Shown in pieces: positions 3,820 to 17,125 of a DNA stretch of 32,605 nucleotides. The notes beneath the pieces were generated by a model, which was not told the origin of the DNA, made no database searches, and worked only from the letters and a program-made list of their open reading frames with translations. How positions within the stretch are numbered: position 1 is the stretch's first letter; each line of letters opens with the position of its first letter. Source of the stretch: Holdemania filiformis DSM 12042 (GTDB lineage Bacteria > Bacillota_I > Bacilli_A > Erysipelotrichales > Erysipelotrichaceae). The position numbers were made by a program, and so were the translations under genes. The DNA lies in assembly GCF_000157995.1 (NCBI RefSeq), contig NZ_GG657553.1, positions 126,342 through 158,946 of the forward strand, in the 5' to 3' direction.

Positions 3820-4173
3820 TCATTTCATCTTTTCGATCAGCTTCAGAAGTTCGTCGGCTTTTTCATCGCTGAGTCCCTTATTCTTTAAGAAAGAAGAAAA
3901 GAACAGCTCGTCGCTTCCACCGAACATTTTATTGATCAGTTCCGCGGTTTCCTCTTTCTGAACCTCTTCCCGGCGGACTAACGCCTCACATTGAAAGTTG
4001 GGTTCCGTTCGTAAAACCGCGCCCTTATCCACACATTTTTTGATCACGGTATACGTCGTATTCTTATTCCAGCCGATGCTCTGACCCAGCTCATCGGCAA
4101 TTTCCTTCGCCGGTGTTTTGCCTTTCCGCCATAAGACGTCCATGATTTTCAATTCAGAATCGAATAATTTCAT
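3820..4173 (-). CDS. blaI: BlaI/MecI/CopY-family transcriptional repressor
   Basis: The 117-residue winged-helix repressor matches the family in length. The N-terminal DNA-binding part has FDSELKIMDVLW and the recognition region GWNKNTTYTVIKKCVDKG (about 34-51). The C-terminal dimerisation part contains INKMFGGSDELFFSSF (80-95), similar to the region where BlaI homologues are cleaved. The ATG at 4173 has AGGAGG a few bases upstream. It is first in an operon with the M56 protease. Its promoter overlaps inverted repeats that are almost certainly its own binding sites, so autorepression relieved by the protease is the expected circuit. The regulated output beyond this pair is not visible here. 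Confidence 0.9.
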   Translation of the reverse strand: MKLFDSELKIMDVLWRKGKTPAKEIADELGQSIGWNKNTTYTVIKKCVDKGAVLRTEPNFQCEALVRREEVQKEETAELINKMFGGSDELFFSSFLKNKGLSDEKADELLKLIEKMK

Positions 4174-4187
4174 CCTGTCCTCCTTTC

Positions 4188-4263
4188 AGACTACTCCGAT
4201 AGTCTTTTTGTCAATTAAAGACTACTACAATAGTCCCGTGATGTCAAGACGATTTGAGTAGTC
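4188..4263. promoter_or_regulatory. Operator cluster for the BlaI-type repressor (two clear sites, one degenerate)
   Basis: Two inverted repeats have the same form GACTA-N6-TAGTC: 4189-4204 and 4220-4235, centre spacing 31 bases or about three helical turns. A third, GACGA-N6-TAGTC at 4248-4263, has one mismatch and lies 28 bases further. The middle site covers the promoter spacer and -10 region. The first lies next to the ribosome binding site. That these are BlaI sites is inferred from position and symmetry. Confidence 0.75.
4219..4247 (-). promoter_or_regulatory. Promoter of the blaI-M56 operon
   Basis: On the - strand a perfect TTGACA (4242-4247) is followed after 17 bases by TAGTCT (4219-4224) as a weak -10. 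Operator 2 lies across the spacer and -10, as expected for direct repression. Confidence 0.6.
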
Positions 4264-4361
4264 TGATCTGTTTTATTGTAATCATCTTAATTTCAAAAAA
4301 ATTTCTGCACTTCATTTTATGCATAGTTAATAGCTTAAAGTAAATTGAAAAACAATATTCC

Positions 4362-4408
4362 TATTCCGGTATCACTTATCAAAATTTTATAAATTTATTC
4401 CGATATCA
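4362..4408. repeat. Short direct repeat at the left edge of the AT-rich island
   Basis: TATTCCGGTATCA (4362-4374) and TATTCCGATATCA (4396-4408) match at 12 of 13 positions, 34 bases apart. The rest of 4264-4483 is AT-rich with nothing else recognisable. It may be a scar of island insertion; this is uncertain. Confidence 0.3.
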
Positions 4409-4483
4409 GAATCTTAGTACAGCAGAATAACAATTATCTAATAAGATCAATTACTCTGAAAATCAAAAAACCCAAATAATTCA

Positions 4484-4512
4484 AAAGCTGGGCAGCATTT
4501 TATCCCAGCTTT
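4484..4512 (-). terminator. Terminator of the hsd operon
   Basis: AAAGCTGGG (4484-4492) and CCCAGCTTT (4504-4512) form a perfect 9-bp stem with an 11-base loop. On the - strand the stem ends in TTTT and a second T-run (GGGTTTTTTG) follows. It lies about 40 bases past the end of hsdR. Confidence 0.8.
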
Positions 4513-4553
4513 AATGATATAACTCATTCTTACTTAGACCTAGAACCTGCATC

Positions 4554-7500
4554 TCAGGATAAAGCATTAGAATTGATTCTTTTAATAACATTCTGAATTC
4601 CATTTAACATGTTTAAATCATTACCAAACAATTCAAGGATCGTACCTTTATCTGTAAACGGTGTATGTTTAAGCACTTCTGGATCCTTTAGCATACCGTT
4701 TCTTACAATATATTCAATAATCTGATTGACAAAATAAATCTGATTACTATTCAGCTCCGCATCATCCAGATATTCCGCAAACGCCCCTTTCGCGGCATTC
4801 ATATCCAAGCCTACAATTTCTCTGACAAATTCACCTAATGGTTTATCTCCGAACTCTGAATAATAGTCCTGTTGAGTTCCCAATTCAATCCAAAGAATAT
4901 ATTCTAAATCTTTTAAATCTTTGGAATTTAGAGGTTCATTGGACTTGAGTTTTATGATGGCTGGATTATCTTGTTGATGCTGCTTAATATAATATTCAAT
5001 CTTCGCTTTATAATTTTCCAAGTTAGTTTGATTAAGTTCTGACTCATTCCATTCTATGGATAGAATATCATCTTCAAAATTAGTGTCATATTTACTCGTC
5101 TTGCCTTTTGGCAAATATTTCATAAGACTTCTAAGCTTTTCTCTGATTTCCTCGAATTCGTTAATCCCGCTATCTTCCAAATAATCTGTATGCAGGATTT
5201 TGTTGATTAAGTCTGAATGAACCTGAATTTCCGGAATGTTGGCTACGTTGGAAATTCCTTTAACCTTATTAGTTAAATCTCTATATCCTTTCATATACCG
5301 ATTATTCATTAGATACGCTAACTCGATCTGATACATTAAAGCATCAAATCGCACTGCGCTGATCTCATCTTCATCAGGTTGAATCAGCGGTGTAAGCTCA
5401 TTTTTAACCATTGAACAATCTTCAGAAGTCAAAGTTACATAATTATCTGGATTCGAGTATAAATCAACATATTTAAGATGTTGGCGCACATCAAATTTGG
5501 AACGATCCAATTCTTTTACCTTTACCACCAATTCATCAACTAAAGTACTTCTCCACGCTTTTAATTCCTCTGTCTGATAAGCCATAGCTTGAAGCTTCCA
5601 CACAATTTCAAATTTCAAGTTAAAGATCGCTCCTTGAATAGCGGTTATATTCGCAGAGGCTTTCCCTTTATTCATTCTGAAAAATTCAAAATTACCACAA
5701 AAATCGAAAATATAAAATTCTTTTTTATCTTCCCCATCCAGCAATTCAGGACATAAACGGGTTCCACGTCCAATCATTTGCCAGAATTTAGCCTTGCTCA
5801 TTACCTTTTTGAAGAAAACAAGATTCACTACTTCAGGCACGTCAATCCCCGTGTCCAACATATCTACGGATATCGCTATCTGAGGAAGCTTATTAGCATC
5901 CGAAAACTCATCAATCGCAGTTTGTGCATAATTGATATAATTGTCAATTACTTTTGCATATCCCTTTAACTGTGGATATTCTTTATTAAAAATTTCGTAT
6001 ATTTTTTCCGCATGATTGTGATTTTTAGCAAATATTATTGTTTTTCCTATTTTCTGGCCATAATCAATTTTAATTCCATAGTGAAATAGAGTTCTCAAAA
6101 CTTTCTTTATAGTATCCTCATTAAACACCCACTCATTTAACGCTTCAGGACTAATCCTTTCTGGAAAATTTCCATTCTCATCCGCAAAGGTATTTTCGTA
6201 TTCTTCTTTTTCTTCGTCGCTCAATTGATCCCAGCTAATTCCATCAACAATAAATTTTAAATCTGTTTCTACTGATAAATAATCGACTAAATACCCATCT
6301 TTTACAGCTTGAGCTAATTCATATCCAAAAGTCGGAACATGGTTTTCAAGTTCAAAAATTCCATACGTGTTTTTATCAATTTCATCTTTTGGCGTTGCGG
6401 TCAAGCCCACTAACGGTGCATCAAAATACGTGAATATATCCTTATATTTATTATAGATGGATCTATGAGCTTCATCGCATATGATTAAATCAAAATGTCC
6501 GCAGGTGAAAAGTTTTTTGCCCTCTTCTTTAATTGAATCGATACAGCCCATCATCGTTTGATAGGTAGAAAAAACCGCATGTGCGTTATAATTATCTTTC
6601 TCCTCAACCAGATTCGTCGCTGACAATTCTGGAAGCAAATTAACAAAACTTCTTTTTGCTTGAATAACTAAAGAATTACGGTCTGCTAAAAACAGAATGT
6701 TTTTTACCCATCCGTTTTTTAATAATACATCGACAAGTCCGATAACAACTCTTGTCTTACCTGAACCGGTTGCCATGACCAGTAGTGCTTTTCTTCTATT
6801 TCTGGCATCGAAAGCTTCGCAAACTGCTTTAATCGCATTTTCCTGGTAATAACGCCCAGCAATCTCCTTATTGATATCAATATACTTCAAATGCGATTTC
6901 ATTTTCTGCAAGTTGAAATGTTTTTCCAAATCTCGCTTAGAATAAATAGATGAAACTTTTCTTTCCGGATATTGATTATCTATAATTCGGGTATCAAAAC
7001 CATTTGTCAGAAAAATGACGGGTCTTACATGATATTGTTTTTCTATTAAATCAGCATATAAAGAGGCTTGCTGCCTTCCTTGAGAAACATCAACACATGT
7101 TTTTTTCGCTTCAATAATCGCTAATGGTTTATGCGCATCATCAAATAAAACATAATCAGCATAACCAACATTCGATTTATTTGGCATTTCTGTTAACTCT
7201 ACTTCATTCAGCCAATCCTTGCCTTCTGTCCATCCAGCATCAATTAACATGGCATCAATATATAGCTTCCTTGTTTTGAACTCAGATAAATCTAACGGTC
7301 TGGCAACATAGGTATCCTGTTGTTGAATTCTGCGCTCACTTAATTCAGCTTTTAAAGCTTTATTTTCTTCAATCAGAGTCTGCAATTCAATATCTTGTAC
7401 TTTATTATCGGGTTCACTTATCTTTTGAGTCTCTAATAAGGTTTCATCATAGTCTCTCTGTTCATAATTTTCGCCATAGCAATAAGCAATAAAGTCAAGA

Positions 7501-7850
7501 AAATAGAAAAGGTTACGCAAACATATTTTAGCTATGTTTTCACTTTTCTTATCTGTGGTATGGGCTACTTTATTACCATATCTGCGAATGAATTCTAAAC
7601 GATTCCACAAATCAGTACCCACGATATCCCTAAAAGCATCAGTATTCATCAAACTATGTAAATTATCCTGATAGGGAACTTTCAATTCCCGATCAACAGA
7701 ATACATCCATTTAATTGCCGCTTCCATCGCTCGTCGGCAGTTAAAAATACATGAGCTAACATCGATATTGAATGTTTTTTCTGCGACAACCGCAATATCT
7801 ACAAAGCTATCAAAATCTTTTTCGTCTTTCAAATAATCGAAGTTAGTCAT
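4554..7850 (-). CDS. hsdR: Type I restriction enzyme subunit R (HsdR), EcoEI-like, with DUF4145-like N terminus
   Basis: HsdR is the ATP-driven DNA translocase and nuclease of the type I complex. The 1098-residue product begins with a DUF4145-like segment (about 13-125). The nuclease region (228-285) has D232, E247 and K249 in the IIEAKK motif. The SF2 helicase motor follows with Walker A TGSGKT (361-366), DEAH (459-462) and TAT (484-486), then the later GRGTRLCPE motif. A long C-terminal part presumably contacts the methyltransferase. The start at 7850 is chosen because GGAGGAAATTT stands directly before this ATG, whereas upstream in-frame starts would overlap hsdS2. All core motifs look intact. 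It is the last gene of the operon, with 37 bases between hsdS2 and its start. Confidence 0.93.
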   Translation of the reverse strand: MTNFDYLKDEKDFDSFVDIAVVAEKTFNIDVSSCIFNCRRAMEAAIKWMYSVDRELKVPYQDNLHSLMNTDAFRDIVGTDLWNRLEFIRRYGNKVAHTTDKKSENIAKICLRNLFYFLDFIAYCYGENYEQRDYDETLLETQKISEPDNKVQDIELQTLIEENKALKAELSERRIQQQDTYVARPLDLSEFKTRKLYIDAMLIDAGWTEGKDWLNEVELTEMPNKSNVGYADYVLFDDAHKPLAIIEAKKTCVDVSQGRQQASLYADLIEKQYHVRPVIFLTNGFDTRIIDNQYPERKVSSIYSKRDLEKHFNLQKMKSHLKYIDINKEIAGRYYQENAIKAVCEAFDARNRRKALLVMATGSGKTRVVIGLVDVLLKNGWVKNILFLADRNSLVIQAKRSFVNLLPELSATNLVEEKDNYNAHAVFSTYQTMMGCIDSIKEEGKKLFTCGHFDLIICDEAHRSIYNKYKDIFTYFDAPLVGLTATPKDEIDKNTYGIFELENHVPTFGYELAQAVKDGYLVDYLSVETDLKFIVDGISWDQLSDEEKEEYENTFADENGNFPERISPEALNEWVFNEDTIKKVLRTLFHYGIKIDYGQKIGKTIIFAKNHNHAEKIYEIFNKEYPQLKGYAKVIDNYINYAQTAIDEFSDANKLPQIAISVDMLDTGIDVPEVVNLVFFKKVMSKAKFWQMIGRGTRLCPELLDGEDKKEFYIFDFCGNFEFFRMNKGKASANITAIQGAIFNLKFEIVWKLQAMAYQTEELKAWRSTLVDELVVKVKELDRSKFDVRQHLKYVDLYSNPDNYVTLTSEDCSMVKNELTPLIQPDEDEISAVRFDALMYQIELAYLMNNRYMKGYRDLTNKVKGISNVANIPEIQVHSDLINKILHTDYLEDSGINEFEEIREKLRSLMKYLPKGKTSKYDTNFEDDILSIEWNESELNQTNLENYKAKIEYYIKQHQQDNPAIIKLKSNEPLNSKDLKDLEYILWIELGTQQDYYSEFGDKPLGEFVREIVGLDMNAAKGAFAEYLDDAELNSNQIYFVNQIIEYIVRNGMLKDPEVLKHTPFTDKGTILELFGNDLNMLNGIQNVIKRINSNALS

Positions 7851-7887
7851 AAATTTCCTCCGTTCTAACCTAATTATACACTTACAT

Positions 7888-8916
7888 TCACTTATATGGA
7901 GCGACATATTTTGATTTATCGACTTGTTTAACGAAATCGGCAAACTCATTTTGAAGATCAAGAGGAACATCAATAATCATTTCATTATGAAATTCATTCC
8001 GATTTAGCGTTGGTACGCCAGTACCAGAAGCAAATCGTTGTAGTTCATAAAATTCTAATAAGTATTTAAGATATATAATATTGTTATTATAAGTATTAAT
8101 AGAGTAAAGTGTCGTATTTAATGGCCAAAAAGGATGGGCATAATAGTAAACTTTGCCGAGAGTTCCTGACCTTCCAGTTATTATTCCACTATTACTTTTT
8201 GCTTCATTATGATATCCAACAATTCCATTTGAACCCCAAACGGGAATCGTACTATTCTGAATCCTGTTTTGTATCGGTAAATCATGACCTCTTTGAAGTT
8301 TTACAACCTCAATAACTTTTTTAACAACGAAATTCTTATTATTGGTAATAGGGTTTCCAAACATCTCGACAAATCGGGCTTTGATCAAATCATCAAGTTT
8401 ACACAGTTCTCGCTTACGTAAAATTATAACATTCCAACATTTTCTGAGATTTTCTGCGCGTTTAATTTGCTCTTCTATTAAGGGTAAACTTATTTGTATA
8501 TCACTAACTATAGATTTTGATATTTCTTTAAATGTTGCTCCTCTTCCTAGTGAATTCAGATATTGCGTATTTCTTTTAAGAAACCAATAGAGATAGATAT
8601 TATTTATTCGCTCTGAACAAATTAAATTTTTAAACCCCTGATTACAATACATTTCTCTCCCGGCAATGGCAACCTTCCCTATTGGTGCACGTGATGATAG
8701 TATTACTGTACCAGGTGGAAATGATTTTAATCCCGTGTCTATGACCGCTTGCCGAGTAATCTTTCTTACACTTTCATTGATTATAATTGTATCGTCAGAC
8801 AACTCTGCTGGAGTAATCCAATTGATATCACCGTTCCAATATTTAGAGCAACTAGTGTTTGGTGTGGTTCCCGATACGATTTCACATATATCACCTAACT
8901 TAAACTTATTAAACAC
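7888..8916 (-). CDS. hsdS: Type I specificity subunit HsdS (second copy, shortened C terminus)
   Basis: HsdS carries two target recognition domains that read the two halves of the recognition site. The 342-residue product starts with GTG at 8916, directly after a repeat that supplies GTGGGGATAAA as binding site. The first domain has SGTTPN..YWNGDINWITPAE and the spacer reads KLDDLIKARFVEMFG. The second domain has PVWGSNGIVGY and ITGRSGTLGKVYY. The protein ends NEFADFVKQVDKSKYVAPYK: it loses similarity to the other HsdS right after VDKSK, missing about 17 terminal residues. It may be functional or may serve as a donor for recombination. It lies between the integrase and hsdR. Confidence 0.9.
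   Translation of the reverse strand: MFNKFKLGDICEIVSGTTPNTSCSKYWNGDINWITPAELSDDTIIINESVRKITRQAVIDTGLKSFPPGTVILSSRAPIGKVAIAGREMYCNQGFKNLICSERINNIYLYWFLKRNTQYLNSLGRGATFKEISKSIVSDIQISLPLIEEQIKRAENLRKCWNVIILRKRELCKLDDLIKARFVEMFGNPITNNKNFVVKKVIEVVKLQRGHDLPIQNRIQNSTIPVWGSNGIVGYHNEAKSNSGIITGRSGTLGKVYYYAHPFWPLNTTLYSINTYNNNIIYLKYLLEFYELQRFASGTGVPTLNRNEFHNEMIIDVPLDLQNEFADFVKQVDKSKYVAPYK
7908..7923. repeat. 3' hsdS direct repeat, copy in hsdS2
   Basis: ATTTTGATTTATCGAC is identical to 10051-10066 in hsdS1, in the same orientation. It encodes the VDKSK end of the conserved C-terminal stretch. hsdS2 diverges immediately downstream. Confidence 0.75.
8357..8380. repeat. Central hsdS direct repeat, copy in hsdS2
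   Basis: 24 bases are identical to 10569-10592 in hsdS1, same orientation, starting CCAAACATCTCG on the + strand. It encodes ARFVEMFG in the spacer between the two recognition domains. Similarity continues imperfectly for about 25 bases beyond. Confidence 0.85.
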
Positions 8917-8939
8917 TTTATCCCCACAAATCCGAATTT
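8917..8939. repeat. 5' hsdS direct repeat, copy before hsdS2
   Basis: 23 bases are identical to 11061-11083, same orientation, starting TTTATCCCCACAAATC on the + strand. On the - strand it ends with GTGGGGATAAA just before the GTG start, so the ribosome binding site lies within the repeat. It begins one base after the integrase stop codon. Confidence 0.9.
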
Positions 8940-8940
8940 G

Positions 8941-9936
8941 CTAACTAATATACCTTCTGTGTGATTCTTTGACATTATTCTGATTGACCATTGCGTAATG
9001 CATCGTCGTGTCTATTTGAGAATGCCCTAATAAACTTTGCACCTGTTCTATTGGCATTCCTTTATCAATCGCTTTTGTAGCTACAGTTCTTCGAAATTTA
9101 TGCGGATGAACTTTCGAAATTCCTAATCTTCTTCCAAGTTGCCTTAATCTGATCTCCACCCCGCTTATTTTTAATCTATCATGTGGTAAATCTAAAGAAA
9201 CAAATAATGCAGGATTATCATCATTTCTCGTATTTAAATAATTTTTCAAATGAATTTTTGTTCTCGCATCAAAATATACCGGTCTTTCTTTATTGCCTTT
9301 ACCAAAAACTACACATTCTCTATTTTCAAAATCAATATCATTAATATTCAATTTTACCAGCTCTCCAACACGCATTCCTGTTGAAGATAGCAGATCAATG
9401 ATCGCTAGATCTCTTAAACTTGTACAACTATCTCTTAGCAATTCTAACGTCTCATCAGAATATGTTTCTTTAATTACTTTATCTGTCTTAATCTTATGAA
9501 TTCTCTTCATCGGACTCTTTAAGATATAATTCTCCTCTTCTAGCCAAGAAAAGAAACTACTTAAATTCCGTCTAATGTTATCCACACTTGCCTTAGAACA
9601 ATTATTCATTTTCTGATAATCTGTCAAATATGTGCGCAAATCATCAGTAGTCATATATGTTATACTCATATTGATTTTTTCATTCATTTTAATCAAAGTA
9701 GATTCATAATACTTTGTAGTTCTTTTACTACAACCTTCTATTTCTTTAGCAGATATGAATTTAGAGATTAATTCTTCATTGGAATATTTGCAAATCTCAC
9801 TAACAGAATCCTCCAAAGCTTTAATTTCCACTTTTTCAAAGCATCGAGTTAAAACAATATCAAGCATCTGCATTTGAGCGTTATTTAAATGTTTAAGTAA
9901 AGATTGTTCAATTTCTTTGATAATGGTTTCTTTCAT
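8941..9936 (-). CDS. Tyrosine recombinase (XerC/D-like integrase) inside the hsd operon
   Basis: Tyrosine recombinases cut and rejoin DNA at specific sites. The 331-residue product has an N-terminal SAM-like core-binding region (about 52-140) and a catalytic domain with the full set: R189 (GMRVGE), K213 (GKGNKER), H279 and R282 (HPHKFRR), H305 (LLGHS) and Y314 (TMHYAMV). The ATG at 9936 follows GGAGG by eight bases; two earlier in-frame ATGs have worse sites. An integrase between two hsdS genes usually marks a phase-variable type I system. Here the two hsdS genes point the same way and the gene lies within a unit bounded by 23-bp direct repeats, so excision or exchange of that unit is a plausible reaction. 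Confidence 0.92.
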   Translation of the reverse strand: MKETIIKEIEQSLLKHLNNAQMQMLDIVLTRCFEKVEIKALEDSVSEICKYSNEELISKFISAKEIEGCSKRTTKYYESTLIKMNEKINMSITYMTTDDLRTYLTDYQKMNNCSKASVDNIRRNLSSFFSWLEEENYILKSPMKRIHKIKTDKVIKETYSDETLELLRDSCTSLRDLAIIDLLSSTGMRVGELVKLNINDIDFENRECVVFGKGNKERPVYFDARTKIHLKNYLNTRNDDNPALFVSLDLPHDRLKISGVEIRLRQLGRRLGISKVHPHKFRRTVATKAIDKGMPIEQVQSLLGHSQIDTTMHYAMVNQNNVKESHRRYIS

Positions 9937-9979
9937 ACTAATAACCTCCATTACCAACCTCACTCCAACCATTACTCAA

Positions 9980-11059
9980 CTATCCAAAATATTTTTGCAT
10001 TAAACTATCAAATAATTCTTGTGTTTTATCCAGTGACTGCTGCACCGCTAATTTTGATTTATCGACCTGATTAACAAATTGTTCAAAATCATTTTGTAAT
10101 TTTAAATTTACTTTAGGAACTAAGATATTTTTTAATGTCTCAGATTTAATACCTTGAATTGTAGCACCACGTTTCTGACCATTGAAAAAATCTAAATACT
10201 CATCTAAAAGATATTTTAAAAACACTAAATTGAAATTATCATCAATATTTGTAATTGAAACAATATCTTGATTTGTACACATTGGAACAACATTTTTGGA
10301 CACTTTACCAACTCCAACTCGTATTCCAAACAATAGTGAATTCGCAGGTATTAATTTAGTTGCGCTATTTTCTATTGCATCTTTTGTTATATATTCGATT
10401 GCATCTTCGAATCCTATTTCAGTCTTACCTAACGCAACTGTAGAAATCCATGGGATTTCTCCTTCAAAATATTCCGGTTTAGCTCTTGACGGTGTACCTC
10501 CACTAATTAAATATGAAATGTCTTTCAAGTATACTTGCTCCCATTTCTTAGAATTTGATTTTATGTCCCCAAACATCTCGACAAATCGGGCTCTAATTAA
10601 ATCATCAAACTTCTGAAGCTGTTGTTTTTTCAAGTTAATAATCAACTCGACTTTTTGAAGTTTATCTACTACTTTAAACTGAACAACTAAATCAGGAACA
10701 TCTATTTCAATCTTCAATAGATCTGATTTTGTAAGGCTCGGTAATGTTACAGCTTTGTTGAGCCTATTAAAATCAAAATGCAAACAGAAATAATACAAAT
10801 ATTTAGGGATCATTTTAGATCTATCCGTAACTAATCCAAACGCAGTATCGACATTCCAAAATGGTTTATCTACAAATATTGGGTTATTGATGCTTCCTTT
10901 TCTGCCAATAACAACAGTATTGCCTTCGCATAAATAATTATTAGCAAACCCAATGATCCCACCACTTCCATAGATAGGATATTGACCCTCTGGATTCTCG
11001 ACACTTTTTTGATTCTTACCATTCTTAATAATCAAAATATCCTTGAACGTTTTCAGCAT
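9980..11059 (-). CDS. hsdS: Type I specificity subunit HsdS (first, full-length copy)
   Basis: The 359-residue product is probably the expressed specificity subunit, since it follows hsdM directly. The first domain has GQYPIYGSGGIIGF and VVIGRKGSINNP. The spacer ends KFDDLIRARFVEMFG. The second domain has SGGTPSRAKPEYFEGEIPW and FGIRVGVGKVSK. The C terminus FVNQVDKSKLAVQQSLDKTQ...LMQKYFG is the usual complete tail. The ATG at 11059 is preferred to the in-frame GTG at 11071, because the latter lies inside the repeat that supplies GTGGGGATAA as binding site and hsdS2 uses the equivalent position. The gap after hsdM is 46 bases; the integrase start lies 43 bases downstream. Confidence 0.9.
   Translation of the reverse strand: MLKTFKDILIIKNGKNQKSVENPEGQYPIYGSGGIIGFANNYLCEGNTVVIGRKGSINNPIFVDKPFWNVDTAFGLVTDRSKMIPKYLYYFCLHFDFNRLNKAVTLPSLTKSDLLKIEIDVPDLVVQFKVVDKLQKVELIINLKKQQLQKFDDLIRARFVEMFGDIKSNSKKWEQVYLKDISYLISGGTPSRAKPEYFEGEIPWISTVALGKTEIGFEDAIEYITKDAIENSATKLIPANSLLFGIRVGVGKVSKNVVPMCTNQDIVSITNIDDNFNLVFLKYLLDEYLDFFNGQKRGATIQGIKSETLKNILVPKVNLKLQNDFEQFVNQVDKSKLAVQQSLDKTQELFDSLMQKYFG
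10051..10066. repeat. 3' hsdS direct repeat, copy in hsdS1
   Basis: Identical 16 bases to 7908-7923, same orientation, encoding VDKSK near the C terminus of HsdS1. Confidence 0.75.
10569..10592. repeat. Central hsdS direct repeat, copy in hsdS1
   Basis: Identical 24 bases to 8357-8380, encoding ARFVEMFG. Recombination between the two copies would join the first recognition domain of HsdS1 to the second of HsdS2 and delete the integrase. Confidence 0.85.
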
Positions 11060-11060
11060 A

Positions 11061-11083
11061 TTTATCCCCACAAATCCGAATTT
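11061..11083. repeat. 5' hsdS direct repeat, copy before hsdS1
   Basis: Identical 23 bases to 8917-8939, same orientation, 2144 bases apart. It lies in the hsdM-hsdS1 gap and carries the ribosome binding site of hsdS1. Confidence 0.9.
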
Positions 11084-11105
11084 ATCATTCAGATTTTCCT
11101 CCTTT

Positions 11106-12608
11106 CTATTCCTCCAGTAAAGCCTTTAATTCTTCTAAATTCTTATCTATTTCTTTGTTTAATGCCACAATATCCACAAGTATTTCATGAGTTGGCGCAT
11201 ACTCCACTTTTTCATACACGACTTCTTTATATTTGTTAATAGAAAGATCATAGTTGTTATTCACAATTTCTTCTTTATTGACAAAGAAGCTTTGATCTGT
11301 ACGTTTTCTATCAATTTCTTTATCAAGGTTTTTAAATCTATTAATGATATCTGGAATATCGTTTTCTTTGACTATTGAACGTTTATCATCCAATGAAAAG
11401 CCGTCAGCTTTCATATCATAGAACCAGACTTTATCTGTTCCACCGTGACCTGTCTTCGTGAAAATGAGGATTCCTGTAGAAACTCCGGCATATGGCTTAA
11501 ATACGCCAGACGGCATGGAAATGACAGCTTCCAGTCGATTTTCCTCAATAAGCGCTTTTCTGATTTGCACATGAGCGTTGCTTGATCCAAACAAAACTCC
11601 GTCCGGAACAATACAAGCGCAACGACCGCCAATCTTTAACATTCTTATAAATAAAGCCAAGAATAACAACTCAGTCTTTTTTGTTTTAGCGACTTTTAAC
11701 AGATCGGATGATACGGATTCCGCATCTAATGTGCCTTTAAACGGAGGATTGGCTAAAACTAACGAGTATTTATCCTGATCCAAATTTTGATCCGAAAGAC
11801 TGTCCCGATACTCAATGAAAGGAGATTCTACCCCATGTGTCATCATGTTCATGGCTCCAATTCGAAGCATCGTTCGATCCATATCAAAACCATGAAACAT
11901 ATGATTCATGTAGTGATCTCGATTTTGCTTATTCATTAAAATATCATTTTTATAAGTGTCGATAAGATAAGTACTGGCTTCAACTAGAAATCCTGCGGTT
12001 CCACAGGCAGGATCACAAATCGTATCTTCTGGTTTCGGATTTACTAATTTGACCATCATTTCAATAATATGTCTTGGTGTTCTGAACTGACCATTTCTAC
12101 CTGCTGTCGCAATCTTCGACAAAAGATATTCGTATACATCTCCTCGGATATCTTTTTTTTCAGATTTGCTCATAGAATCATAAATATCATCCAGTGAATC
12201 AATGACCTTAGATAAAACTAAAGGAGTCGGTAATTTAAATATCGCATCATCCATGTATTTTGAATACGCACTGTTCTTATCAGCATGTAGATTCTTAATA
12301 AAAGGAAAAACCCAATCTTGCATAATCTCATACATCTTGCCAGCAGGAAAATCATGAAAAACTGACCATTTAAGTTGATTCCCATTAATTGACCTTTCAC
12401 CAATTTGAACTTGGTCTGAGAAAATACTTTTGAAAGGTAAACCCAATATCGCATTTTCTTTTGCATTTTTATTATCTACATCATCTAAATCACGAATGAA
12501 CATTAGATACGTTATTTGCTCAATGACTTCTAACGGATTGGTTAAGCCACCTGCCGCAAAGATATCCCATAAACTATCAATCTTATTTTTTAATTCACCT
12601 GTAATCAT
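11106..12608 (-). CDS. hsdM: Type I DNA methyltransferase subunit M (HsdM)
   Basis: HsdM methylates adenine in the site chosen by HsdS, using S-adenosylmethionine. The 500-residue product has the N-terminal helical HsdM region, the GQFRTPRHIIEMMV segment (174-187), the SAM-binding motif DPACGTAGF (199-207) and the catalytic NPPF (287-290). Length and motifs are complete. The start at 12608 is chosen because GAGGAG precedes it and because the ATG overlaps the fic stop codon as TAATG, indicating translational coupling. It is followed by hsdS1. Confidence 0.95.
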   Translation of the reverse strand: MITGELKNKIDSLWDIFAAGGLTNPLEVIEQITYLMFIRDLDDVDNKNAKENAILGLPFKSIFSDQVQIGERSINGNQLKWSVFHDFPAGKMYEIMQDWVFPFIKNLHADKNSAYSKYMDDAIFKLPTPLVLSKVIDSLDDIYDSMSKSEKKDIRGDVYEYLLSKIATAGRNGQFRTPRHIIEMMVKLVNPKPEDTICDPACGTAGFLVEASTYLIDTYKNDILMNKQNRDHYMNHMFHGFDMDRTMLRIGAMNMMTHGVESPFIEYRDSLSDQNLDQDKYSLVLANPPFKGTLDAESVSSDLLKVAKTKKTELLFLALFIRMLKIGGRCACIVPDGVLFGSSNAHVQIRKALIEENRLEAVISMPSGVFKPYAGVSTGILIFTKTGHGGTDKVWFYDMKADGFSLDDKRSIVKENDIPDIINRFKNLDKEIDRKRTDQSFFVNKEEIVNNNYDLSINKYKEVVYEKVEYAPTHEILVDIVALNKEIDKNLEELKALLEE

Positions 12609-13663
12609 TATTCTTTCTCCTCGTTCCAAATATAGGAAGTATATCTTCCTCCGCTAATCTTAATGATTTCTCCTTTTTCAACTAATTCAATTAAAGCTCT
12701 TTGAATCGTAATCTGACTGATGTCCGGACATTGTTTCATAATCTCCGCTTTTGTAATCTTGCCCACATTTCGTTTGATAATTGCTCGTACCCTTTCAGGT
12801 TTAGAAAATCCAGATTCAATCAGAATTTGGACTCGTGAAGAAAAATCGCGATATGCGGCGACAATGGCACCTAGATAATATTCAACAAAGGGTGCATAAT
12901 CATTATTATTTTCATGCCAGCCTAGCGAACTTTGCTGCAAAGCTTCATAATAACTTTCTTTTGTAGTTTCAATTAGCTTTTCAATGCTGATATATTTGCC
13001 GACAATATAGCCTGATTTATACAAAAGTAATAATGTTAGTAATCGGCTCATTCTTCCGTTACCATCATTAAACGGATGAATGCAAAGGAAATCCAAAATA
13101 AACATAGGCATCAAAAGAAGTGGATCAACATTGTCTTTCAAGGCTTGATTGTATGCATCACATAATTCATCAATGGCTTCAGGCGTTCTCCATGATTCGA
13201 CAGGGCGAAATCTGATTTTACTATTCCCTTGAGAATCCATTTCAGCGATGATATTATCGACATTCTTATATTTTCCACCAATGCTTAAACCTGTAAACTT
13301 ATACATCCCTCCATGCAGCTGTAAAAAGTAATTTGATCGAATCGGAATGTAATCATAGTTTTCGTGAATCATATTTAATATGTCCCGATAACCCGCTATT
13401 TCTTTCTCATTTCTGGTCTTAGGCATCGTTTTATCCATAACAATTTTCTTTAATCGCTCATCAGATGTATAAATACCTTCAATCTTATTCGACGCGTCTA
13501 CACTTTGAATCTTTGCAATTTCAACAAGATCGCTTAATTTATCTGCATTGGATTCAATAAACAGATTTTGTTCCCCTTTATATTCATGAATAGTTGTCAA
13601 TAAGGAAACAATTTGAGGTGTCAATAAACTTTTCGATAACTCGCTATATTCAAATTTTTTCAT
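12608..13663 (-). CDS. fic: Fic-family protein with C-terminal winged helix, first gene of the hsd operon
   Basis: Fic enzymes transfer AMP or related groups to protein hydroxyls, or remove them. The 351-residue product has the intact catalytic motif HPFNDGNGRMSR (196-207). It also has an N-terminal SNKIEG (58-63), matching the class II autoinhibitory pattern S/T-x3-E-G/N. Residues about 290-345 form a winged-helix-like domain (ITKAEIMKQCPDISQITIQR). The start at 13663 has AAGGAG upstream; an earlier in-frame ATG lies too far upstream. Its stop overlaps the hsdM start, so it is made together with the methyltransferase. A toxin-like or regulatory role towards the restriction system is possible; target and activity are unknown. 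Confidence 0.92.
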   Translation of the reverse strand: MKKFEYSELSKSLLTPQIVSLLTTIHEYKGEQNLFIESNADKLSDLVEIAKIQSVDASNKIEGIYTSDERLKKIVMDKTMPKTRNEKEIAGYRDILNMIHENYDYIPIRSNYFLQLHGGMYKFTGLSIGGKYKNVDNIIAEMDSQGNSKIRFRPVESWRTPEAIDELCDAYNQALKDNVDPLLLMPMFILDFLCIHPFNDGNGRMSRLLTLLLLYKSGYIVGKYISIEKLIETTKESYYEALQQSSLGWHENNNDYAPFVEYYLGAIVAAYRDFSSRVQILIESGFSKPERVRAIIKRNVGKITKAEIMKQCPDISQITIQRALIELVEKGEIIKISGGRYTSYIWNEEKE

Positions 13664-13756
13664 ATCCGTCTCCTTTCTGCAGAGAAACATCAATAAGTCC
13701 AGAAAAACAGAACTCCTATTTAAACGAATTTAGAATTTATGCTTTCCGACAGTTTC

Positions 13757-13785
13757 ATTATAGATTCAATATTATCAAAAAGCAA
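13757..13785 (-). promoter_or_regulatory. Probable promoter of the fic-hsd operon
   Basis: On the - strand TTGCTT (13780-13785) is followed after 17 bases by a perfect TATAAT (13757-13762). The -35 overlaps the end of the 22-bp palindrome arm, so a protein bound there could control the operon. Confidence 0.55.
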
Positions 13786-13849
13786 TTCAATTTTATCATT
13801 TTTAAAATTTTGATATAATTAAAATCTAAAATGATAAAATTGAATTGCT
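13781..13849. repeat. Palindromic element, copy 1, upstream of fic
   Basis: Perfect 22-bp arms (13781-13802 and 13828-13849; left arm starts AGCAATTCAATTTTATC) enclose a 25-base centre. The centre contains TTTGATATAATTAAA, which looks like an extended -10 box on the + strand. A 61-bp related copy with the same 17-27-17 layout lies at 15697-15757. It is probably an operator or promoter module; a small mobile repeat is the alternative. Confidence 0.75.
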
Positions 13850-13958
13850 AAAAAAGTGAACTTGAATTATTAGATTAGGACATCGTTGCGTTTAATCATG
13901 CCATAACTTTACTTAATTAAGGTCTCATAATAGATATGAGATTGGTTTTCGGTTTTTT

Positions 13959-14210
13959 TCACCATTTTACGCAGTCTTTTTCCAAACCGTCATAAAAATC
14001 AATGACCACCTCATATGTAGTTTTATTGCTGATGGATCATTATTACCATAATCAGGATCTTGATCATCACACATATAGTCTATAAAAGATTTTTTTTTGA
14101 CCGGGTTCAGTACTATATTATCATAGCATATCTTTTTCTTACCTTTTACGATGGCAGGGCAAAACAAAATAAGAAGATTCATCAATTTCCTCTACAATTG
14201 CATAATTCAT
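13959..14210 (-). pseudogene. Frameshifted remnant of a small gene, unknown family
   Basis: A good binding site (GGAAGGTGA) precedes ATG at 14210, which reads MNYAIVEEIDESSYFVLP and stops after 23 residues. Continuing in other frames gives further protein-like stretches: KKSFIDYMCDDQDPDYGNNDPSAIK, cited here only by its core DPDYGNNDPS, and finally YEVVIDFYDGLEKDC ending at TGA (13959-13961). This suggests one gene broken by at least two frameshifts. A run of nine T (14090-14098) lies inside. The bases between this and the palindrome (13850-13958) hold only a weak AT-rich hairpin (13922-13941). Confidence 0.4.
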
Positions 14211-14237
14211 TATTCCGCTCACCTTCCTTGGCTATTC

Positions 14238-14342
14238 TTAAAGCTTACTTACTAAAATCTTTAACCAGTCCTCAGAGCTTAACAGATCTACATAATTTTT
14301 TAAAGCGTATTCTGAGCGCAGCAACGTAATACCAAAGAACAT
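14238..14342 (-). CDS. Possible 34-residue small protein or remnant
   Basis: ATG at 14342 begins seven bases after the stop of the ATPase gene and reads MFFGITLLRSEYALKNYVDL to a TAA at 14238. Upstream GGGGCG is a poor binding site. It may be a tiny gene translated with the ATPase, or a leftover of a decayed gene. No family is recognised. Confidence 0.25.
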   Translation of the reverse strand: MFFGITLLRSEYALKNYVDLLSSEDWLKILVSKL

Positions 14343-14349
14343 ATCGCCC

Positions 14350-15582
14350 CTATGTATTCGATTCTTCAAGCAGCCAGTCAATAACATTCACAACTTTAAT
14401 TCCATTGTAATTTCCGGGTGTAAAACGATCCAAAGTAAGAACAATTTTCTCATAATTATCCTGAATATTTTGCAGAGGCCTCATTTCACGATTAAACGTC
14501 TCTTCCGCCGTCATGTTCACTGCTACCTGAATATAAGTGATTATATCCTGTTTTTGAGCTACAAAGTCAATTTCTGTATTTCCCAGTTTACCGATATACA
14601 CGCGATATCTTCTTCGTAGAAGTTCTAAATACACGATATTTTCAATCGAAAAACCGAGATCATAATTCTTTCACGGCAGCATCACAGTCCGAAGTCCTAA
14701 ATCCACAAGATACCATTTCGCATTAACCTTCAGTAATTGTTTTCCTACGACGTCAAAACGATCTGCTTTGTAAAAAATAAACGCTTCTGACAAAGCTTCC
14801 ATGTAATCGCTCACGGTATTCGACGAAATTTTTCTGCTGCTGGAAATCAGCGTATCTGTTACCTTTTTAGCGGATACCGGACTGCCAACGACACTCGCCA
14901 AATAACGAGCGATTGTAAGCAATAACGCGGCATCTGTTGTTTTTCGCTGATTCCCGTCGTTATTTCTTCGATTCTGTCGTTCTTCAATATCTTTTACAAC
15001 GACTGTATTCAGAATTCCTTCCAGATAATCCGGAGCTTTTTCGGATATCTTGTTCACTGTGGCAAGATAAGGAAAGCCGCCGTTACGCATATAGTTCAAA
15101 AATGCCTGATCGAGATTCTCTGGTTTTTGCGCTTCAACAACTTCCTTGAAGGATAAAGGCAACAACGTAATTTCAATATAGCGGCCTGACAATAAAGTAA
15201 CTAAATCACCAGAAAGTAAATAAGTATCGGAAACTGTTATATAAATATCCACATTTTCCTTTAAAAAGAGACTGTCGACGACTTTTTCAAAAGCTTCTAC
15301 TCTTTGAATTTCATCAAGAAAGATATAGGTCATTCTATTTAAACAAAGCCGTTTTTGAATAGATGCATATAGAGCTTTATAATCTAATAAGGCTTCGTTC
15401 TCTAAATCTTCAAAATTGATCGAAACAATTTGATCTTCTGTTACTCCTTCTTTTATCAAGCGTTCCTGCATTTGCTTTAATAGTGTCGATTTTCCGCAAC
15501 GACGAATACCGGTGATCACCTTGATGACTTTTTCATCTTTCCAGGCTGAAAGCTGTTCTAAGTATGTCTTTCTTTCTATCAT
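14350..15582 (-). pseudogene. AAA (AAA_14/DUF4143-type) ATPase gene with in-frame TGA
   Basis: This family has an N-terminal P-loop ATPase and a C-terminal DUF4143 domain with a nuclease-like fold; its role is poorly known. The frame runs 410 codons, interrupted only by TGA at 14671-14673 (codon 304). The N-terminal part has Walker A GIRRCGKST (25-33) and Walker B TYIFLDEIQRV. After the stop the same frame continues with NYDLGFSIENIVYLELLRR and GNTEIDFVAQK, the typical C-terminal part. Relatives usually have a glycine at the stop position, so a GGA-to-TGA change is likely. The usual ITGSN motif reads ITVSD here, a further sign of decay. The start at 15582 has GGAGG before it. Confidence 0.75.
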
Positions 15583-15673
15583 GATGTCCTCCACTATACG
15601 TTCTCATCGTAGCATGAATTCAATTTTTATAATCGATAATTCTATTATTACTCCTATGGGTGGATTGATTTCT

Positions 15674-15702
15674 ATTATGATATCTGGAATAACCCCATTC
15701 AA
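15674..15702 (-). promoter_or_regulatory. Probable promoter of the ATPase gene
   Basis: On the - strand TTGAAT (15697-15702) and CATAAT (15674-15679) are 17 bases apart. The -35 is the outer end of palindrome copy 2, so binding to the palindrome would affect this promoter. Confidence 0.5.
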
Positions 15703-15757
15703 TTTTATCATTTTTTTAAATTTGATATAATTAAATCCCTAAATGATCAAATTGAAT
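15697..15757. repeat. Palindromic element, copy 2, upstream of the ATPase gene
   Basis: Arms of 17 bases (15697-15713, 15741-15757; 16 of 17 paired) enclose a 27-base centre with TTTGATATAATTAAA at the same offset as in copy 1. Arm sequence ATTCAATTTTATCATTT is shared exactly with copy 1 on the left side. Confidence 0.75.
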
Positions 15758-15794
15758 GCTTATTCTTCCCTCTTTAAGCTTTATAAACAGAACA

Positions 15795-15818
15795 CCGAAC
15801 TGTATCTCTGCAGTCCGG
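15795..15818 (-). terminator. Possible terminator of the amidohydrolase gene
   Basis: On the - strand CCGGACTG and CAGTTCGG form an 8-bp stem with one G:U pair and an 8-base loop, 27 bases past the stop. The following T-tract is weak (TGTTCTGTTTA). Confidence 0.45.
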
Positions 15819-15844
15819 CGATCGTTGTCTTTATATCCTTATGT

Positions 15845-17125
15845 CTAAATAAACTGATCCAGAGCCTGTTCGACCTCCGGCATTTTCTTGACCTGCGGAT
15901 CCGCATAGCGCTTGCCGCGGGCAACCACCAAGCTGACCTTCCGCAGCGCTGTTAAATCTTCCAACGGATTCTTCTCCGTTACGATGAAATCTGCACACTT
16001 GCCGACCTCGATAGAACCTGTCTGATCACCGATTCCTACCAGCTCAGCGTTGCGCTTGGTCGCGGTATACAGCGCGAACGCATTGGAAACACCGCAGAAC
16101 TTATGGAAGTAGTTGACTTCCCGCCACATATCGTAATGCGTGATGTACGGACATCCCGTATCCGTGCCCAGGCCGACCGGAATGCCGTTGGCCAGACATT
16201 CCTTCGCGCATTCGACAATGCCGTCAAAAACGACCTTGCCGTTGTACTGTTCCATTTCTGAAACATGACTGACAGCCCGGTCAAATAACGCATAAGGCAA
16301 AGCGGGCGACAGTGTTGCCACCTGGCAGGCCTTGCGGTCTTTGAACAGCTGGATAATCTCCGCGCTCGGCATCGCGCCATGCTCGATCGTATCGACGCCG
16401 TTTTCCAACGCGACCTGTACGCCCTGCGGACTTTCCACATGCGCCGCTACCTGCAGACCCAGGGCATGGGCTTCTTCACAGGCCGCCTTCACGATTTCCG
16501 GCGACATTTTCAATTCTCCCGGCTCCCCTTTGACCTTCGCGTCCAGCACGCCGCCGGTGATCATCAGCTTGATCAGATCCGGCTTGTCCTTGGCGATCTG
16601 ACGAACAAAAGACCGCGCCTGTTCCGGAGAGGTCGCCTCATACGCCAGCGATCCGGCCATGTGGCCGCCTGGTACAGAAATCGCCATATTTCCCGCCAAA
16701 ATCCGCGGTCCGTCGATTTTGCCCGCCAGCACCGCGTCGCGGATTTTCGTATCAACATCCTCAACGCCGCCGACCGTGCGGATCGTCGTCACGCCGCTCA
16801 TCAGCTGTGTCTTTGCATACCCTTCGCACATCTTCAACATAATTTTGCGCAGGAAATTGTTGCTTGTCATCAGCTTGACCAGTTTCTTCGGATCACTCTG
16901 CTTCTTCTTCGGCTTGCCGTTGGCCGGCAGATGAACGTGCAGATTGATCAGCCCCGGCATGATGTACTGCCCTTTCAGATCGACGACCTGCGCGCCTTCA
17001 TAAGCGGACTGCTGCGGCTCGATCGCAATAATCTTTTCCCCTTCGGTAATCACGGCCATCCCTGTCTGCGGTTCCATGTTCTCGGAACCATCTAACAGGA
17101 TTCCATGGATATAAACTGTTTTCAT
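15845..17125 (-). CDS. Metal-dependent amidohydrolase (imidazolonepropionase/prolidase-like)
   Basis: Amidohydrolases use one or two metal ions in a TIM barrel to hydrolyse amide or related bonds. The 426-residue product has the metal motif HVH (63-65, in GLINLHVHLP), K186 in LIKLMITGG as likely carbamylated lysine, H229 (AAHVES), H249 (IEHG) and D322 (GTDTG), so the active site looks complete. The C-terminal GSIEVGKCADFIV is typical of the imidazolonepropionase-like branch, which includes cytosolic aminoacyl-proline dipeptidases. No histidine-degradation genes are nearby, so HutI is unlikely. The exact substrate is unknown. The ATG at 17125 has AAGGGTGA upstream. It appears to be transcribed alone, with strong GC contrast to the adjacent AT-rich island. 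Confidence 0.88.
   Translation of the reverse strand: MKTVYIHGILLDGSENMEPQTGMAVITEGEKIIAIEPQQSAYEGAQVVDLKGQYIMPGLINLHVHLPANGKPKKKQSDPKKLVKLMTSNNFLRKIMLKMCEGYAKTQLMSGVTTIRTVGGVEDVDTKIRDAVLAGKIDGPRILAGNMAISVPGGHMAGSLAYEATSPEQARSFVRQIAKDKPDLIKLMITGGVLDAKVKGEPGELKMSPEIVKAACEEAHALGLQVAAHVESPQGVQVALENGVDTIEHGAMPSAEIIQLFKDRKACQVATLSPALPYALFDRAVSHVSEMEQYNGKVVFDGIVECAKECLANGIPVGLGTDTGCPYITHYDMWREVNYFHKFCGVSNAFALYTATKRNAELVGIGDQTGSIEVGKCADFIVTEKNPLEDLTALRKVSLVVARGKRYADPQVKKMPEVEQALDQFI

Follow-up and report, generated by a model that had tools for sequence, protein, structure and literature searches.

Excision and reintegration through circular intermediates has been described for the SpnIV (tvr) type I restriction-modification locus of pneumococcus, where it is guided by midpoint and tail-end direct repeats that lie in one orientation and share a core of about 11 bp (PMC6265443). 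Rearrangement there is greatly reduced without tvrR, and the target recognition domain (TRD) adjacent to hsdM is immobile, which the authors link to a missing 5' repeat (PMC6265443). We describe here a type I locus of Holdemania filiformis DSM 12042 (genome of 3.93 Mb in 35 contigs) lying within a stretch of 32,605 bp (the window, to which all coordinates refer), in which a tyrosine recombinase gene, int, stands between two specificity genes, hsdS-A and hsdS-B, that are paired by three classes of direct repeat. The best explanation, and in our view a highly probable one, is a recombinase-driven specificity cassette that leaves and re-enters the locus; we regard the case for this kind of system as strong and that for the three-class site rule set out below as moderate. 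An initial annotation had suggested a self-mobilising specificity cassette, which agrees with this explanation, although the kind is already published for pneumococcal tvr (PMC6265443). It had also presented direct orientation as a departure from the usual, a view we do not share, as the published tvr mechanism is a precedent for the arrangement and many of the relatives described below show it too.

Three classes of direct repeat and their site structure

The genes run on the minus strand in the order Fic-domain gene, hsdM, hsdS-A, int, hsdS-B and hsdR (Table 1). The annotated pair of minus-strand hsdS genes with an integrase between them is borne out by Methylase_S matches to the two open reading frames (ORFs; Pfam E 5e-39 and 9e-33) and by a Phage_integrase match to int (Pfam E 1.3e-36 over residues 163-319). 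The int product also exceeds the cut-off of NF040815 (recomb_XerA_Arch), shows the motifs TGMRVGEL, HPHKFRRT, LLGHS and MHY, and has the archaeal XerC-like recombinase 4a8e as its closest solved sequence (E 2e-30). hsdS-A contains the TRDs a1 and a2 and both conserved helical regions, with the tail LAVQQSLDKTQELFDSLMQKYFG.

Exact direct repeats of 23, 24 and 16 bp, as first annotated, are all present at the 5', central and 3' positions of the two hsdS genes, with pair spacings of 2144, 2212 and 2143 bp respectively. Dinucleotide shuffling of the hsdS stretches gave a longest direct exact match of 11 bp on average and 18 bp at most (300 trials), and resampling of synonymous codons with the proteins fixed gave a direct match of at least 24 bp in two of 500 trials. 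The 5' repeat of 23 bp lies in non-coding DNA. More telling than repeat length is the occurrence of the three repeats at matching gene positions in many relatives.

All three classes align in one orientation as [C/T]AAA-N6-TTT[G/A], with the class-specific spacers TTCGGA (5'), GCCCGA (central) and TCAAAA (3'). A reading in which the 3' site repeats the central core in inverted form (GATTTGTCGA versus TCGACAAATC) was dropped; the arms-plus-spacer alignment gives a single orientation, in agreement with the pneumococcal report.

Related loci were retrieved with the window recombinase, 80 of them from one-per-species genomes and others from related genomes. In the direct-type loci the arm motif is present upstream of 46 of 134 hsdS genes versus 2.1 expected, some of the 46 being central-type sites ahead of half-length hsdS genes, and it is weak or absent before hsdM (3, with 1.1 expected), hsdR (6, with 1.1) and int (1, with 2.0). 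A separate site of the 5' class, comparable to that of the window, is present in about 19 distinct loci. Same-class copies within a locus have identical spacers at the central (33/33) and 3' (41/41) positions, with variation between loci, and no locus has a spacer common to its central and 3' sites (0/41) or to its central and 5' sites (0/18). A regular-expression comparison of 5' spacers returned three mismatching pairs (L010, L042 and L093), in which another AAA-N6-TTT had been picked or the start was annotated at a distance from the site; in each of these loci a further site of 5' type carries the matching spacer. Tyrosine recombinases need identical crossover segments. The within-class identity fits this requirement and supports site-specific exchange without proving it, as gene conversion could also keep the copies alike. 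The central block gives a further indication, in that GCC, CGA, GTC/ATC and GAG are used at the central sites of relatives at frequencies of 0.75-0.94 versus 0.13-0.31 elsewhere in the same genes (GCC 0.94 versus 0.13, CGA 0.75 versus 0.14, and GAG 0.90 versus 0.31). The central peptide permits many codons and usage is nonetheless skewed, so the DNA itself is constrained.

These features bear on three other ways to account for the locus. The first is that the two hsdS genes are fixed and both expressed, giving two constant specificities, with the repeats being duplication remnants and the recombinase an inert passenger. In both genes the frame is indeed open, with a start codon and with a ribosome binding site within the 5' repeat, and the assembly shows a single arrangement; however, identity between the genes is limited to the three sites, unlike a plain duplication, and int encodes an intact, conserved enzyme. 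Since hsdS-B also lacks the C-terminal conserved region, an asymmetry repeated in relatives, and since related loci differ in their TRDs while the blocks between sites are kept, we consider this explanation improbable.

The second is that the repeats act solely as short stretches of homology in RecA-dependent recombination or in gene conversion, without the recombinase as the agent. It draws on the observation that in pneumococcus some excision at repeats of about 70 bp persists without TvrR, but that path was RecA-independent too, and the recombinase was necessary at short repeats (PMC6265443), whereas those in the window span only 16-24 bp. The arm-plus-six-base-spacer anatomy suits a tyrosine recombinase, and breakpoints in a sister branch fall on such sites, which together make this alternative very unlikely.

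The third is inversion, as in SpnIII or the Streptococcus suis system, whose enzyme is 62% identical to that of the window and belongs to the same family; inverting relatives also use the same arms. In the window, however, every site class is in direct orientation, both hsdS genes are on the minus strand, and because spacers differ between classes there is no matching inverted site pair. With a longest inverted match of 11 bp between the hsdS genes, we rejected an inversion mechanism for this locus as scarcely credible.

Predicted arrangements and the C-terminal tail

In the mechanism that we propose, the recombinase would bind the shared short inverted arms flanking a 6-nt crossover spacer, and the class-specific spacers would restrict recombination to sites of the same class. 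Each such event would excise a circle of about 2.1-2.2 kb carrying int and two TRDs, whose re-entry at the same class would restore the locus and at another class would permute it, giving the four arrangements a1a2/b1b2, b1a2/a1b2, a1b2/b1a2 and b1b2/a1a2 (first gene/second gene). The hsdM-side gene would always acquire the complete C-terminal helix, the gene beyond int would always be truncated and act as a store, and a population could hold up to four HsdS specificities. The cassette may be active in this species, and methylation may change with it.

Cutting and rejoining the window sequence by script at the exact repeats yields circles of 2144 bp (5'), 2212 bp (central) and 2143 bp (3'). 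Simulated re-entry gives back the original when it takes place at the same class, and three further arrangements when it takes place at a different one. All ORFs remain open, and every TRD pairing reaches the first position with the complete tail FDSLMQKYFG, the first gene encoding 363 (a1a2), 382 (b1a2), 340 (a1b2) or 359 (b1b2) residues when counted from the earliest possible start codon; in every case the second gene terminates in DKSKYVAPYK. All four TRDs move in the simulation, the hsdM-adjacent one included. The 2144-bp unit of hsdS-A and int bounded by the 5' repeats, as initially annotated, is one of the predicted circles. Its excision would indeed place hsdS-B behind hsdM as was proposed, but hsdS-B would then be without C-terminal conserved region 2 (CR2), so that simple excision would probably switch off or weaken the system and not provide a clean new specificity. 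Likewise, the suggested swap of gene order by re-entry holds in the simulation for a different repeat class (central or 3'), whereas re-entry at the 5' repeat only restores the original.

As for the CR2 tail, hsdS-A ends ...FDSLMQKYFG, whereas hsdS-B stops just past its 3' repeat (...QVDKSKYVAPYK) without the tail. In relatives, the hsdM-side hsdS carries a tail of 19-27 residues of the type LAVQKSLEKTQQLFDSLMQEYFG, corresponding to the second conserved helical region, and the other copies end soon after the 3' site in unrelated residues. The tail is present in 44/45 hsdM-side copies and 1/40 others when the list is classified by eye (Fisher 6e-22), and in 37/45 versus 3/40 (p 1e-12) by a strict regular expression that misses variants such as KLMQ and SVMQ. 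Because the CR2 tail sits between the 3' site and int, it should travel with int and not with the TRDs. hsdS-B is probably a truncated store, its presumed inactivity following from general knowledge of the role of this region in HsdS proteins, and we infer that only the hsdM-side gene is functional.

Table 1. Coordinates of the hsd locus and its putative recombination sites within the window.
Feature	Position	Strand	Basis or remark
5' site of hsdS-A, 23-bp repeat AAATTCGGATTTGTGGGGATAAA	11061..11083	-	exact copy at 8917-8939; carries ribosome binding site
5' site of hsdS-A, arms and spacer TAAA-TTCGGA-TTTG	11071-11084	-	arm motif
5' site of hsdS-B	8917..8939	-	directly after int stop codon; CAAA-TTCGGA-TTTG at 8927-8940
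Central site of hsdS-A, 24-bp repeat AGCCCGATTTGTCGAGATGTTTGG, codons for ARFVEMFG	10569..10592	-	TAGA-GCCCGA-TTTG, one mismatch
Central site of hsdS-B	8357..8380	-	CAAA-GCCCGA-TTTG at 8370-8383
3' site of hsdS-A, 16-bp repeat GTCGATAAATCAAAAT, codons for VDKSK	10051..10066	-	TAAA-TCAAAA-TTAG
3' site of hsdS-B	7908..7923	-	TAAA-TCAAAA-TATG
CR2 tail of hsdS-A, between 3' site and int	9980..10051	-	tail statistics in relatives, simulation
hsdS-A, complete specificity subunit, 359 aa, adjoins hsdM	9980..11059	-	Methylase_S, two stretches
int, tyrosine recombinase, TvrR clade, 331 aa from ATG, ORF opens 9972	8941..9936	-	Phage_integrase, tree
hsdS-B, second specificity gene, 342 aa, GTG start, TRDs b1 and b2	7888..8916	-	Methylase_S, two stretches
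hsdM, N6 DNA methyltransferase of type I system	11106..12629	-	Pfam N6_Mtase (E 3e-67) and HsdM_N
hsdR, type I restriction subunit	about 4554..7850	-	ResIII, EcoEI_R_C, HSDR_N
Fic-domain protein, overlaps hsdM start	12608..13693	-	Fic (E 3e-15)

Rearranged relatives and the recombinase tree

The initial annotation had recommended looking for reordered hsdS genes in related loci, and TRDs have indeed changed sides of int in three comparisons. A natural REARRANGEMENTS is seen between L046 and L047, which are 93% identical across 6.4 kb of flank; a 561-bp segment between a central and a 3' site, 97.7% identical in the two, is upstream of int in the former and downstream of it in the latter, and a further segment shows the reverse shift. 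A TRD also lies on different sides of int in L047 and L051 (91% identity) and in L102 and L113 (77%). When the window is compared with L038, L039 and L040, the last of which is from Holdemanella biformis DSM 3989 and has the arrangement of the window, the ends of the conserved blocks lie no more than about 40 bp from the sites. We also note that the two hsdS genes of L050 are identical over 561 bp from the central site onward, and that L066 has two hsdS genes whose N-terminal TRD proteins are 97% identical, suggesting recent copying between the two hsdS positions.

Lactococcus plasmids of the inverting branch offer more closely matched sequences. The recombinases of pJM1A, pJM2A and pUCCL627F are 61% identical to that of the window, and the plasmid loci are 99.5-100% identical to each other outside the TRDs, with TRD segments inverted or placed on the other side of int. 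Their breakpoints fall on TAAA-TCATCA-TTTA sites, which ties the arm motif to real crossovers within this recombinase family, in its inverting branch only; these plasmids and those of L. salivarius are inverting-type relatives and were used as a check on the site motif and not on the direct mechanism. Together with pUC073A (the four being L131, L127, L128 and L129 in the order named), the Lactococcus plasmids represent one type I locus in at least three inversion states that is otherwise 99.5-100% identical.

The order hsdM, hsdS, int, hsdS, hsdR in a single orientation is found in dozens of relatives, including Erysipelotrichaceae, Lachnospiraceae, Oscillospiraceae, Selenomonadaceae, some Bacteroidota and others; those with a direct-type arrangement are mostly Bacillota, with Bacteroidota, Fibrobacterota and others also represented. 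A second group, to which S. suis, S. agalactiae and S. macacae belong, carries half-genes on the other strand. On a tree of 89 recombinases, the 66 direct and 20 inverted loci require 6 and 5 label changes, versus about 20 and 18 when shuffled. The clade containing the window recombinase has 35 rows (support 98/93), 32 of them direct, and includes the Streptococcus loci L081, L096 and L115. Over 282 residues int is 68% identical to the recombinase of L096, a Streptococcus tvr-type locus in which a MazE/doc-partner-like gene and a Doc gene separate hsdS from the recombinase gene, as in pneumococcal tvrAT-tvrR. Two loci within the direct-type part of the tree, L048 and L097, have converging hsdS genes, yet the full-tail copy still adjoins hsdM; they are possible intermediates between the direct and inverting layouts.

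Several considerations weigh against excision and re-entry of the cassette. Proportions among the relatives are biased because these were found with the window's own recombinase, and the relatives are not phylogenetically independent samples. The arm motif is exact in three of the six window sites and has one or two mismatches in the other three, and at the central and 3' sites the conserved peptide itself dictates part of the motif. Site-precise breakpoints in near-identical DNA come from the inverting branch only, and TRD exchange between species could partly reflect horizontal transfer. No second arrangement of the locus is seen in its own genome assembly, and same-genus genomes have no recombinase copy above 41% identity.

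A genome-wide Methylase_S search returned one further match, on another contig, with no other cassette or rearranged copy, and other recombinase copies in the same genome are only distant (25-31% identity). The viral collection yielded five recombinase relatives (60-66% identity), with no direct-type near-copy useful for breakpoints.

Relation to described systems

The likeness to tvr/SpnIV includes gene order, with hsdM, TRDs, tyrosine recombinase, TRDs and hsdR in one orientation in both; the sites, with the central and 3' repeats of the window corresponding to the midpoint and tail-end direct repeats with shared arms; the enzyme, which is in the same clade (the TvrR lineage) as judged through L096, a tvr-type locus of another Streptococcus; and the proposed route, in which a circle with the recombinase gene leaves and reintegrates at another repeat. 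There are nonetheless four differences. In tvr the tvrAT toxin-antitoxin genes lie between hsdS and the recombinase gene, whereas in the window only 43 bp separate the hsdS-A stop (9980) from the int ATG (9936) and tvrAT genes are absent from this gap, which is also short for a transcriptional attenuator ahead of the recombinase gene such as tvr has. The window has a 23-bp 5' repeat before each hsdS, whereas pneumococcus reportedly has none at the hsdM-adjacent TRD; its sites are 16-24 bp, compared with about 70 bp for the tvr tail repeat; and a Fic gene precedes hsdM. Because of the added 5' sites, the hsdM-adjacent domain should also move, and a locus that would work like tvr but with a 5' repeat and without tvrAT is a variant and not a strict member. 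We note that TvrT of pneumococcal tvr is a Doc protein, also of Fic fold, which represses the recombinase gene, and that a Fic-domain gene directly precedes hsdM in L038, L039, L064, L091, L107 and L108 as it does in the window.

The inverting loci (SpnIII/ivr-cod, S. suis, and the L. cremoris and L. salivarius plasmids) share TRD exchange, the recombinase family (about 60-62% identity in the comparisons made) and, at the central and 3' positions of hsdS, sites with the same arms and a six-base spacer. They differ in having one common spacer, inverted sites and half-genes on the opposite strand, which leads to inversion and not excision. Xer/dif and archaeal XerA likewise share the recombinase family and two short arms around a six-base spacer, but the window enzyme serves a restriction locus that has several classes of site, and not chromosome dimer resolution. 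TRD rearrangement in hsdS is also a feature of Helicobacter pylori DoMo, in which TRDs are reported to shift within one gene (PMC3077401); the window differs in keeping N- and C-terminal classes apart by different sites and in encoding a recombinase within the locus.

The locus is therefore of a known kind, an excision-reintegration type I locus, and what is new is the extra 5' site pair, through which all four domains should move. No description of the three-site form was found in the literature searched, in which subscription journals are largely outside coverage, and the literature found describes no hsdS excision-reintegration other than pneumococcal tvr. A REBASE survey of duplicated hsdS genes searched only inverted repeats (PMC7394358), and for that reason direct-type loci would escape it.

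The restriction island (window positions 4000-16000) has a guanine-plus-cytosine content of 32-37% versus 43-57% on either side and was probably acquired horizontally; it is flanked by a BlaI/BlaR1-like regulator pair on one side and an amidohydrolase-like gene on the other. Two 61-bp near-palindromic copies (13785-13845 and 15697-15757), 87% identical and in direct orientation, bracket an AAA_14/DUF4143 ATPase gene (14350-15594), and because the genome holds no other copy they look like the borders of one insertion and not a repeat family. The ATPase gene appears as two ORFs (15594-14671 and 14634-14350), probably split by a frameshift or stop.

A more specific model, to which we give somewhat better than an even chance, is a three-key shufflon in which shared arms and three incompatible six-base spacers permute all four domains via circles, while the tail stays with int and function is at all times confined to the hsdM-side gene. 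The inverting systems would be explained by this grammar too, given one shared spacer and sites in inverted orientation, such that spacer set and site orientation, and not the enzyme, would decide between excision and inversion. The site rule of common arms and class-specific spacers predicts which sites recombine and would unite the direct and inverting systems. If it is true, gut commensals of this group would switch restriction specificity, and perhaps gene expression, inside clonal populations.

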